28,165 bases of DNA. Origin: a virus. The stretch is taken from positions 1 through 28,165 of IMG/VR virus record IMGVR_UViG_3300017598_000571, one strand, 5' to 3'. How positions within the stretch are numbered: the stretch's first letter is position 1; every line of letters starts with the position of its first letter. The notes under the pieces are model-generated. The model made no database searches. It saw nothing but the letters and a program-made list of their open reading frames with translations, and had not been told where the DNA came from. Below are positions 1,037 through 25,725 of the stretch, piece by piece. The translations under genes and the position numbers were made by a program.

Positions 1037-1051
1037 GTTCAATTTTTGAAC
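1037..1051. repeat. Dispersed palindrome copy 1 (GTTCA-N5-TGAAC)
   Basis: GTTCAATTTTTGAAC lies between the gene ending at 1032 and the ATG at 1069, 17 nt upstream of that ATG. It is preceded by AACCG, like copies 2 and 6. Confidence 0.85.
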
Positions 1052-1068
1052 AACTTCTGGGGGCAATT

Positions 1069-1362
1069 ATGGGACTGAGAAAAGAAGTAAGGGAGCTGAT
1101 TGAGCTTGTTAGAGAAAGGTTCGAACAGAATTATGGTCATGAGAGGGTTATGGATTTGTTGGTTAAGGAGAACAGGAGACTGCAAGAACAAGTGCGGCAA
1201 GGGATTCTTCAAACTAATAAGCTCATGGACCGTCTCATGGCCAAGGACTTTGAATCTTACGCGACTTATAAAGAAGAGGATGAAGGTCAAATCTTCTCAA
1301 CCGGTTCAAAAAATGAACGGGTTGAGGATGAATCAAATATAGGCGAGGTAATTGAAGAATGA
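1069..1362 (+). CDS. Hypothetical coiled-coil protein upstream of portal (97 residues)
   Basis: The frame starts at ATG 1069 with a G-rich tract (CTGGGGG) upstream and ends four bases into the portal gene (ATGA overlap). The first 60 residues are strongly helical and charged, with heptad-like Leu/Val spacing (Glu-Leu-Ile-Glu-Leu-Val-Arg-Glu-Arg), suggesting a coiled coil. The last 35 residues are acidic and Ser/Asn-rich. Position directly before the portal suggests a particle assembly or packaging-related role, but no motif supports one. A second copy of the dispersed palindrome lies inside its 3' end and is read as Gly-Ser-Lys-Asn-Glu-Arg. Confidence 0.6.
   Translation: MGLRKEVRELIELVRERFEQNYGHERVMDLLVKENRRLQEQVRQGILQTNKLMDRLMAKDFESYATYKEEDEGQIFSTGSKNERVEDESNIGEVIEE
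1296..1326. repeat. Dispersed palindrome copy 2, extended 31 bp
   Basis: The core GTTCAAAAAATGAAC (1304-1318) is flanked by CTCAACC on the left (1296-1302) and GGTTGAG on the right (1320-1326). Fourteen of 15 arm positions pair, with one G/G mismatch at 1303/1319. It lies in the end of the gene at 1069-1362; the core ends 40 nt before the portal ATG. Confidence 0.85.
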
Positions 1363-3305
1363 GACTCCCTGGAGAAAGCAGTGCTGCCCAGCACTTGATG
1401 CCTAAGAAAAGTAAGGTTAGGTCTACTGATGAAAAGTACTGGCCTGAGATCGACGAGAGGTATAATCTTGGGATGGAGCTGAGAAGGCCTTATGAGCAAC
1501 AGTGGATGCTTGCCCTCTCATTTCTGGCCGGAGATCAGTATGTGCTTTTTAACTCAACAGCTCATTTATTGCAGCGAATTGAGAAAGTGAGAGGTAAGAC
1601 CCGACTTGTGGATAATATCTTGTTCCCTCCCTGGAGAAGGCAAGTCGCTGATCTTATTAAGACAGTTCCTGAGTATGTGGTGATTCCTAATTCTGAGGAT
1701 GAAGAAGATATTAAGGCAGCGAATCTGGGGACGAAGGTCTTGCGTCATGTTCATCGGAATCAGTTGATGAAGAAGAAGGGGAGACTGCTTGCTGGTTGGA
1801 TGTACTCGGTTGGGAATGTCTATCTTGATGATCGGTGGAACCCGAGACTGGGTGAAATCAAGATGAATGAGGCCGGAGACCTTATTTACACTGGCGATGT
1901 AGATTTGGGGGTCTGGTCCCCCTTTGATGTGGTTCTGCCTGTGTTTTCTATGGGCGAGACAGATATTCATTCAATGCCTTGGTTGATTAAAGCAAAGTTT
2001 AGGACCCTGGATTTTATTCGAAGTAATTATCCAAAGAGAGGAAAGGATGTTGTTGCTGAGACGAGGCCTAATGAGGTGATGGGAGCGAACCTGATGAGGG
2101 GAAGAGATCGAGCCTTGGACTCGAAGGTTCCAGGGGCAATACTTAAAGAACTTTATATTCAACCTTCTGCAGATTTTCCAAAAGGGACATTTCTTACTGG
2201 GTCAAATGGAATCATTCTTCAGAAAGCAGACTACCCCTTTAATAATTATAACATGGAGCACTTTAAAGAGATTGATATCCCAGGGGAATTCTATGGGAAG
2301 TCTACGGTGATGGTAAGTATTCCTCAGCAGATTAGGTGGAATAAAACCAACAACTCGATGGACAATTATAATGATAAGCTCTCGAAAGGTAAGATTCTAA
2401 CTCCTAAACGCTCTGGATTAGAGGTCGCACCTGATGATGAGCATGGAGAGGTGATTAGTTATAAGCCAGTAATGGGGCATAAGCCTGAGCAATGGAATAT
2501 GCAGAGTATGCCCAGCTCGATTACAGATACCTTGGGGATTGTTAATAACTCGGTGCAGGATAAATTCTCTCAACATGAAATTAGTCGAGGAACAAACAAG
2601 TCGGATATTAGGTCTGGTGAGATGGTTGGACGACTGAGAGAACAGGACGCTCACGGAGCAATTCCAAGTCACGCTATCTTCGAAGAGGGTATGGAAGAAG
2701 TGATGAAGAGAGTCCTGAAGCGGATTCAAAAAAGCTACACTGAAGAGAGGATGATCAAGGTTGCTGGAAAGGATGGGGAGTGGGAGATTACCTCATTTAA
2801 GGGAAGTGATCTTAGGAATAACACAGACGTCTCAGTTAGGCGGCAGTCAAGTCTGCCCGACTCTCGGATTGACAAAGAACTAATTATTGAGCGAAGATTC
2901 CAGATGGGCTTTTATGGAGATCCTGCTGATCCAGAGGTAAGGCGTCATGTTATGAATATGCTTGATGATGCAATAGTCAAGGATATTTATGGAGATACTC
3001 AGCTTGATGAAGCATATGCGAGATGGGAGAACAGGCTTCTGGCTGATCCAGAAGGAAGTGTGTATCTAATTAATGACTATGATAATCATGAGATTCATGC
3101 TAAGGAACACAATCACTTCAGAAAGAAGATTGAGTATCAGAGATTGAAGACCGATAATCCTGAAATGTTTATGTCCATTGAGACTCGATTTATGGAGCAT
3201 CTTGCTATGCACCAGCAGTTTATTGATCAGCAAATTGCTCAGATGATAGAGAGAGAAAAACAAATGAATGATAAAGGAGGTGAACCTAATGCCAAAAAGG
3301 CCTGA
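1359..3305 (+). CDS. Portal protein (podovirus type)
   Basis: This 648-residue protein has the size and flavour of podovirus portal (head-tail connector) proteins, the dodecameric ring through which DNA enters and leaves the capsid. Typical features are an N-terminal helical part with Arg-Arg-Pro-Tyr-Glu-Gln-Gln-Trp (about 43-50), a Phe-Pro-Pro-Trp-Arg-Arg-Gln-Val segment near residues 89-96, a Tyr-Gly-Lys-Ser-Thr-Val region midway, and a long C-terminal charged helical tail. It is followed by a small gene, scaffold and major capsid protein, the standard order. I use ATG 1359, four bases inside the previous gene with GAGG upstream. A second ATG at 1398 has no ribosome binding site. I cannot tell P22-type from T7-type without a profile search. 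Confidence 0.85.
   Translation: MRLPGESSAAQHLMPKKSKVRSTDEKYWPEIDERYNLGMELRRPYEQQWMLALSFLAGDQYVLFNSTAHLLQRIEKVRGKTRLVDNILFPPWRRQVADLIKTVPEYVVIPNSEDEEDIKAANLGTKVLRHVHRNQLMKKKGRLLAGWMYSVGNVYLDDRWNPRLGEIKMNEAGDLIYTGDVDLGVWSPFDVVLPVFSMGETDIHSMPWLIKAKFRTLDFIRSNYPKRGKDVVAETRPNEVMGANLMRGRDRALDSKVPGAILKELYIQPSADFPKGTFLTGSNGIILQKADYPFNNYNMEHFKEIDIPGEFYGKSTVMVSIPQQIRWNKTNNSMDNYNDKLSKGKILTPKRSGLEVAPDDEHGEVISYKPVMGHKPEQWNMQSMPSSITDTLGIVNNSVQDKFSQHEISRGTNKSDIRSGEMVGRLREQDAHGAIPSHAIFEEGMEEVMKRVLKRIQKSYTEERMIKVAGKDGEWEITSFKGSDLRNNTDVSVRRQSSLPDSRIDKELIIERRFQMGFYGDPADPEVRRHVMNMLDDAIVKDIYGDTQLDEAYARWENRLLADPEGSVYLINDYDNHEIHAKEHNHFRKKIEYQRLKTDNPEMFMSIETRFMEHLAMHQQFIDQQIAQMIEREKQMNDKGGEPNAKKA
3273..3282 (+). promoter_or_regulatory. 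Strong ribosome binding site fixing the start at 3289
   Basis: AAAGGAGGTG lies inside the end of the portal gene, six bases before ATG 3289. It favours that ATG over the in-frame ATG at 3268, which overlaps the Shine-Dalgarno region itself. Confidence 0.85.
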
Positions 3306-3564
3306 TCCAGTTAAGAGCTGGAACCGCGTTCTCAAGTCTCTAAGTGAGACTAAGAAAGCATGGGAGGCTCATCGTGAAGTGATGAGTGAAAGGCCAAACC
3401 TTGAATTACTTCCAATCGAAGCACAAAAGAGACTAAAGTTTGCATTTCATCGTAGCTCTAATTTTGAAAAGTTTCTCCGAGCGGCCAGTGAATTGTGGCA
3501 GCTAAGAGGAGGAATGGAAGAGCTGGTGATTCCACAAGAACCGAAGGAAATTGAAAAGGAGTAA
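3289..3564 (+). CDS. Hypothetical 91-residue protein between portal and scaffold
   Basis: The start is set by a near-perfect Shine-Dalgarno sequence (AAAGGAGGTG) six bases upstream, and the gene overlaps the portal by 17 bp. The protein is basic and mostly helical: Lys/Arg-rich through residue 70, with a Trp-rich Lys-Ala-Trp-Glu-Ala-His segment, then an acidic Glu-rich tail. The strong ribosome site suggests a protein made in quantity. Its place between portal and scaffold suggests a small virion or assembly factor, but no family is recognised. Confidence 0.65.
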   Translation: MPKRPDPVKSWNRVLKSLSETKKAWEAHREVMSERPNLELLPIEAQKRLKFAFHRSSNFEKFLRAASELWQLRGGMEELVIPQEPKEIEKE

Positions 3565-3567
3565 GTT

Positions 3568-25392: not shown

Positions 25393-25409
25393 GGTTCAAT
25401 TATTGAACC
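25393..25409. repeat. Dispersed palindrome copy 8
   Basis: GGTTCAATTATTGAACC is a perfect 7-3-7 palindrome. It overlaps the stop codon of the gene at 25400-25672, its core lies 26 nt before ATG 25367 on the - strand, and it shares the right flank CCGGTT with copy 4. Confidence 0.88.
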
Positions 25410-25672
25410 GGTTTAGGTTCTTCTTTAGCCGGAGCTACCTTTGCCGCCTCGACGAGCTTGCGAATGGCCAGATTGTTCTGCTCGATGAGCTTCTGGAGTC
25501 GAGCCTGTTCGGAGCTAAACCGATCCGACTGGAACAGGAACGTGGCCCGAGCATAGTCAAGCATAGCCTGGATGCGGATGTTCTGAAGCTGACGAGTGTT
25601 CAACTCATCGGATTGGGCGTAGCCGAAGCTACTCAGAGTCAGAACGAGAACGATTGCGAGAACGAATTTCAT
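25400..25672 (-). CDS. Small exported protein with signal peptide (90 residues)
   Basis: Residues 1-19 form a classic Sec signal peptide (Met-Lys-Phe, hydrophobic Val-Leu-Ala-Ile-Val-Leu-Val-Leu-Thr-Leu, then Phe-Gly-Tyr-Ala before Gln20), giving a mature protein of about 71 residues. No lipobox Cys is present, so it is not a lipoprotein. The mature part is helical and polar with a Gln/Glu-Arg-Leu coiled-coil segment (Leu-Gln-Lys-Leu-Ile-Glu-Gln-Asn-Asn-Leu) and a Pro/Lys tail. A perfect ribosome site (25677-25687) precedes it. It lies inside the replication operon, so it is probably made early. Envelope roles such as superinfection exclusion are possible; a lysis role is less likely. No family is recognised. 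Confidence 0.7.
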   Translation of the reverse strand: MKFVLAIVLVLTLSSFGYAQSDELNTRQLQNIRIQAMLDYARATFLFQSDRFSSEQARLQKLIEQNNLAIRKLVEAAKVAPAKEEPKPVQ

Positions 25673-25676
25673 TAAA

Positions 25677-25687
25677 TCACCTCCTTT
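25677..25687 (-). promoter_or_regulatory. Strong ribosome binding site of the exported protein
   Basis: On the - strand this reads AAAGGAGGTGA, four bases before ATG 25672. It is the best Shine-Dalgarno match on the - strand and suggests high translation of the small exported protein. Confidence 0.8.
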
Positions 25688-25710
25688 TGTGTATGGATTT
25701 TTCTCAAGTG

Positions 25711-25725
25711 GTTCATTTTTTGAAC
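25711..25725. repeat. Dispersed palindrome copy 9
   Basis: GTTCATTTTTTGAAC lies in the 59 bp gap between the exported-protein gene and the ATPase gene, 38 nt upstream of ATG 25672 on the - strand. The left flank ttctcaagtg resembles copies 2 and 6. Confidence 0.85.

Follow-up and report, generated by a model that had tools for sequence, protein, structure and literature searches.

The IMG/VR virus record IMGVR_UViG_3300017598_000571 (28,165 bases; "the window" below is this whole stretch) carries nine dispersed palindromes with the core GTTCA-N5-TGAAC, and sites of this kind occur in some 20 relatives, found by their major capsid protein, in up to 10–20 copies per ~45-kb record and in merely two or three copies in some shorter ones. 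Between these phages the positions of the sites are kept while the recognised sequence changes. We read the palindromes as double-stranded DNA (dsDNA) sites for a dimeric protein of a phage module that would most likely modulate transcription elongation or punctuate operons, as a stoperator-like roadblock, and give this reading a probability of roughly 0.58.

A family of nine dyads

The nine core positions listed in a first-pass annotation of the window, and its counts of matches to the ten fixed bases, are exact: across the whole window eight copies are perfect and the one at 18752 has a single change. Dinucleotide shuffles held on average 0.07 exact copies (largest 2) and 1.14 copies with one mismatch (largest 4). 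None attained eight or nine, confirming that there are more copies than chance would give, and a repeat of the shuffle test gave a mean of 0.02. The spacer is indeed A/T-only in eight of the nine copies, the exception being ACATT at 7724, and the family does span both arms of the genome, with the genes for portal, capsid and tail on the + strand and primase, polA, ParB-methyltransferase and Sak4 on the - strand. The long arms attributed to the copies stood in part: extended symmetric flanks are present at 1304 and, less well, at 5746 and 18752, and at no other copy. What recurs in the arms is instead a second, outer half-site, weaker than the inner one and placed ±13 to 15 from the centre, which differs from copy to copy. 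An origin by chance, or as a duplicated selfish or recombination sequence, has the repetition itself and nothing else in its favour; the shuffle counts and the conservation of position with altered sequence make it extremely improbable.

Related phages and divergence of the core

Capsid-based searches yielded first 5 and then 74 related viral contigs. We examined the full or near-full records of 25 relatives, all uncultured, and sought dyads in them without presupposing a sequence. Above a capsid-protein identity of about 55%, almost all relatives have a dispersed dyad of their own; conservation in related phages, whose absence had been set beforehand as the test against the family, is thus what was found. 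The GTTCA-N5-TGAAC class comprises the window, G001, G010 and G019 and, in more degenerate form, G002 and G006. Other classes are GATTCA-N5-TGAATC (G009, G007), TTCAA-N3-TTGAA (G008, G011), TGTTC-N7-GAACA (G014, 20 copies), TTCATT-N-AATGAA (G004), TCCATT-N-AATGGA (G021, G003, G020), TCCGTT-N-AACGGA (G013) and TTCGTT-N-AACGAA (G016). All share an odd-centred register except G012, whose dyad is of a different build (AATG-N4-CATT, with outer CTCTTAAAT/ATTTAAGAG). In the strong cases the counts of a genome's own pattern are far above those in shuffles, and each specificity class has largely private patterns. As each genome's pattern was picked from the very genome in which it was then counted, the core consensus is circular; no such circularity affects position, the outer half-sites or the co-occurrence with the early module.

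The same divergence bears on a comparison made in the first-pass annotation, to LexA-type boxes. LexA boxes have the order GAAC-N4-GTTC; since this order is opposite to that of the dyads and sister phages differ in the core, a LexA box is not supported.

Further afield, Arthrobacter phage Jasmine and Microbacterium phage Shocker, distant relatives with a capsid identity of about 26%, lack any comparable dyad. A query with polA, which in the window encodes a family A polymerase on the - strand, found no relatives among viral contigs, and a scan of viral contigs with a 14-base pattern returned mostly single matches, probably due to chance. A prophage and host search of 84,980 genomes gave one contig of a metagenome-assembled genome, L255 (DAOVUR010000073.1, 'bacterium isolate CSMAG_1684', 8.4 kb). 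Its capsid fragment is 80% identical to that of the window; the contig contains no GTTCA dyad and says nothing firm on lifestyle or host.

Placement along the genomes

Site centres are intergenic in 125 of 158 cases although the DNA is 92% coding (binomial P about 4e-105); the gene calls come from a simple in-house caller, so that single placements may be off. A typical centre lies 10–30 nt past a stop codon and 20–50 nt ahead of the next start. Orthologous junctions are reused: a site follows the capsid gene in 13 records, precedes c3 in 10, follows c13 in nine and follows TerL in seven. Extra copies cluster in a long noncoding control region (G006, G014, G010). Ahead of the next start there is often too little room for a downstream promoter. 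Sigma-70 promoters and intrinsic terminators were considered as the function of the sites and rejected, neither being in excess over control junctions or shuffles.

The main alternative concerns genome organisation or replication/segregation: a protein would bridge or compact the phage DNA in a nucleoid- or centromere-like manner, and junctions would be used only to avoid coding sequence. Consistent with this, in six long records the sites are spaced somewhat more evenly than gene junctions drawn at random (P 0.006–0.13 each), both arms hold sites irrespective of gene function, the sites track the replication module, and a few are intragenic, including one at the same position of polA in the window and in G011. 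However, the reuse of orthologous junctions (after capsid, before portal, before c18) suggests a gene-linked role, the sites lie closer to stops and starts than they would have to if coding sequence were simply avoided, and the ParB-like protein of these phages is a ParB-methyltransferase fusion rather than a classical ParB. We therefore consider this alternative unlikely, though the foremost of those weighed here.

Anatomy of the site

The full element is a dyad of ~31 bp, with strong inner half-sites at ±3 to 6 (TTCA at -6 to -3 and its mirror) and weaker outer ones at ±13 to 15. The outer half-site is CT(C/A) with the mirror (T/G)AG in most records, and GAG(A/T).. in G010 and G019. Over 98 oriented sites, information peaks symmetrically at ±3 to 6 and at ±14; with an inner-outer offset of about 10 bp, both half-sites face the same side of the helix. 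Permuting the left and right halves among copies (±7 to 18) gave 828 paired cells, versus 787 observed. Pairing was not lowered by permutation, and the halves therefore follow the consensus independently, as protein half-sites do; the small deficit plausibly arises because the upstream half contains stop codons. In G009 the central A/T run shows no strand preference (three T5 and four A5 leftward, three and three rightward). The lack of covariation, of a strand preference in the spacer and of a promoter or terminator signature argues for a DNA-binding dimer over an RNA hairpin.

A conserved RNA hairpin had also been proposed in the first-pass annotation. In the mRNA, hairpins could serve as RNase III-type processing sites, in sequestration of the Shine-Dalgarno sequence or as attenuators. 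This would suit the location of the sites, in short gaps directly before ribosome-binding sites; the stem is longer at a few places (the post-capsid gap of G006, G010 and G019), and the outer GAGG can also serve as a Shine-Dalgarno sequence. Against them stand the absence of left-right covariation beyond independent halves, the A-A and T-T mismatches in the outer arms of G019 and the loop without strand preference. An Rfam search of the window gave no match up to E = 1 (the window also has zero tRNA genes), and a true RNA motif near the sites in the same phages, described next, covaries clearly, unlike the dyads. We judge a hairpin to be very unlikely.

This separate motif, AGUAUC-[stem]-GGnnAACUA, is conserved in the relatives' post-capsid gap, just after the capsid gene. 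Over eight sequences (L140:11371-11435, L142:11382-11439, L150:4254-4334, L152:11377-11435, L161:11356-11426, L172:11172-11220, L177:11330-11391 and L196:11167-11224), 97.9% of cells are paired and six pairs show compensatory changes, above shuffled and slid controls. No Rfam match was found in the four loci searched (L140, L142, L152, L177). The motif may be a novel structured RNA, for instance one acting in attenuation or processing. A G-rich run, GGTGGGTGGGTGG, directly follows the post-capsid dyad in the window (~5765-5790) and in G001 (~16670-16690) and might form a G-quadruplex; L148 and L166 have shorter G-rich runs of a similar kind 3' of the capsid gene.

The early module and the search for a binder

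All nine long site-bearing records contain polA, primase, c18, Sak4, the Cas4-like gene, c21, the ParB-methyltransferase, c23 and c27; of these, c21 is the first early gene and c23 carries IGPAPSE. Three other long records, G022–G024, have the same structural genes and neither those early genes nor the sites. Because the sites co-occur with the early module, we infer that the binder is encoded there; the module is its likely source, and the phage itself probably makes it. In one of the three records without dyads (G022, 9260-9480), GTTAG/CTAAC repeats occur about every 19 bp and are possibly an iteron-like origin.

A host-encoded regulator or nucleoid protein could bind instead, with the core differences mirroring differences between hosts. 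Hosts may indeed differ between records, and no phage binder was found. Yet three records with the same structural module and another early module are without sites, and a co-evolving phage gene is the simplest account of kept positions with changing sequence. This explanation ranks after genome organisation and appears rather improbable.

Two candidates for the binder were examined. Cluster 26 resembles a ribbon-helix-helix protein by eye (a beta strand, a GERT turn and two helices); searches of Pfam, PHROG and PDB gave it no notable match, and it was rejected in that role. Cluster 27, a universal early protein of ~137 aa, gave an uninformative AlphaFold model with a predicted local distance difference test (pLDDT) score of 73 and no confident fold match.

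Several results weigh against a phage-encoded binder acting on transcription. The candidate tests pinpointed no such protein, G014 and G019, both strong site carriers, lack the cluster-26 protein, and among the early proteins of eight genomes no protein distance clearly tracks motif distance. The phyletic comparison has only three negatives, and these may be relatives of one another. Sites show promoter-like sequences and T-rich tails no more often than control junctions do. Finally, no tyrosine integrase or serine resolvase was found in nine records, most of them 44–51 kb, so a role in lysogenic silencing is without support.

A single type of site serving as operator for a dimeric regulator, as the first-pass annotation had it, is still the best fit to the symmetry, the independent half-sites and the placement at gene junctions, and is also backed by the change of core at fixed positions and the association with the early module. 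We infer from these patterns a dimeric binder of phage origin that co-evolves with its sites and acts on transcription. In the mechanism that we propose, a sequence-specific protein, in the form of a dimer or a dimer of dimers and most likely encoded by the early/replication module, would bind each ~31-bp dyad and mark the junctions between genes in both transcription units and, in the more complete relatives, the long noncoding control region. Its most likely effect would be to modulate elongation or operon punctuation, as a roadblock like that at stoperators. Between phages, site and protein would shift specificity together, with the positions retained.

Layout of the window

The positions of the dyads and of the two gene modules are collected in Table 1. 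The - strand gene at 22734-24299 encodes a ParB-like domain fused to a DNA methyltransferase; Cluster O phages, which have similar dyads, also encode a protein with a ParB-like domain. The small early protein at 24283-24519 (- strand) has an IGxAPSE motif that is conserved across the long records bearing sites, and a Pfam scan of it gave a chance-level match only.

Table 1. Dyads and gene modules of the window, with relatives that have a site at the corresponding place (ORF, open reading frame).
Feature	Extent	Core	Strand	Sequence	Context	Relatives
Dyad 1	1029..1059	1037-1051		GTTCAATTTTTGAAC	directly after gene 877-1032, ahead of start 1069	
Dyad 2	1296..1326	1304-1318		GTTCAAAAAATGAAC	best outer arms, CTCAACC/GGTTGAG; 3' end of pre-portal gene, ~48 nt upstream of portal start	G001 (12082), same junction
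Dyad 3	5738..5768	5746-5760		GTTCAATATTTGAAC	gap 3' of major capsid gene	site there in 13 records
Dyad 4	7716..7746	7724-7738		GTTCAACATTTGAAC	within 3' end of ORF 6976-7893, 35 nt ahead of start 7766	G002
Dyad 5	11967..11997	11975-11989		GTTCAATTTTTGAAC	between 808-aa and ~482-aa genes	G001, G002, G006
Dyad 6	18744..18774	18752-18766		GTTCAATTTTTGAAT (one change)	primase 3' end, convergent junction	G001, G010, G014 (site after primase)
Dyad 7	20412..20442	20420-20434		GTTCAATATATGAAC	within polA, 189 nt from its 3' end	G011 (42310), own core version, equal distance from polA 3' end
Dyad 8	25386..25416	25394-25408		GTTCAATTATTGAAC	upstream of gene 24873-25367 (cluster 18)	G008, G009, G010, G011
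Dyad 9	25703..25733	25711-25725		GTTCATTTTTTGAAC	gap between Sak4-like gene 25732-26529 and ORF 25400-25672	
Structural genes	1359..18612		+		portal, capsid, tail; dyads 3-5 interspersed, dyad 2 just ahead	
Early/replication module	18738..28164		-		primase, polA, ParB-methyltransferase, Sak4-like, cluster-18 gene 24873-25367; small conserved genes 24283-24519 and 24512-24757 (cluster 26); start of Cas4-like gene	

Comparison with known dispersed repeats

The closest published precedent is the repeat of the Cluster O mycobacteriophages (Corndog, Firecracker), a 17-bp dyad TGTTCGG-NNN-CCGAACA of unexplained function that is present in >30 copies genome-wide, many of them intergenic, with an A/T-rich centre without clear orientation; these phages have no integrase and encode a ParB-like-domain protein (PMC4351075). 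Our own count gave 24 copies in 49 kb of Firecracker, and a search of a literature library found no later paper on the function of the repeat. The sites described here, with the window consensus GGTTCAA-NNN-TTGAACC, share its 7-3-7 dyad, GTTC-N7-GAAC geometry, A/T centre and genome-wide dispersal, and the G014 pattern TGTTC-N7-GAACA (20 copies) is in the same frame. They differ in belonging to another phage lineage, in having outer half-sites at ±13 to 15 and in their multiple core specificities, whereas the Cluster O sites are more often intragenic and are reported to have no close link to translation starts. A tblastn search with candidate early proteins against Firecracker found no clear shared protein, only one short match of an 81-aa protein.

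Cluster A stoperators (L5, Bxb1) number 20–30 dispersed sites per genome, are bound by a known repressor and vary in consensus between sister phages while the system is kept (PMC6550527, PMC9283540); they are asymmetric sites of ~13 bp, oriented with transcription, in temperate phages (PMC6550527, PMC4351075). The L5 comparison in the first-pass annotation captures the logic of dispersed sites, and here, too, the sequence diverges between sister phages, at conserved positions. It fails in the strict sense, as the sites here are symmetric dyads with an unoriented A/T spacer; no integrase or resolvase was found, and no repressor was identified. Start-associated sequences (SAS) of Cluster K are an asymmetric 13-mer, GGGATAGGAGCCC, tied to translation initiation, and the extended part (ESAS) is an inverted repeat (PMC3203893). 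Like SAS/ESAS, the dyads are dispersed repeats just upstream of start codons. Unlike in SAS, the element is the dyad itself, its sequence is unrelated, and convergent junctions and the control region carry it too.

Tentatively, a broader reading is possible, to which we lend less credence than to the binding of a dimeric phage protein as such. A non-integrating, probably lytic phage group may encode a rapidly re-specifying DNA-binding protein that acts on 10–20 fairly evenly spaced operon-junction dyads and so punctuates or organises the whole genome in infection. Such a system would be general among phages and different from repressor immunity, with the Cluster O repeats as another, separate example. 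What dispersed dyads do in phages that show no evident lysogenic cycle has been a question since the description of the Cluster O repeats in 2015, if not longer, and the same architecture is now seen in an unrelated uncultured phage group of about 20 members. Kept position, changing sequence, and gain or loss with the early module turn an odd repeat into a comparative system, and the search for the binder is narrowed to a handful of conserved early genes that are directly testable.

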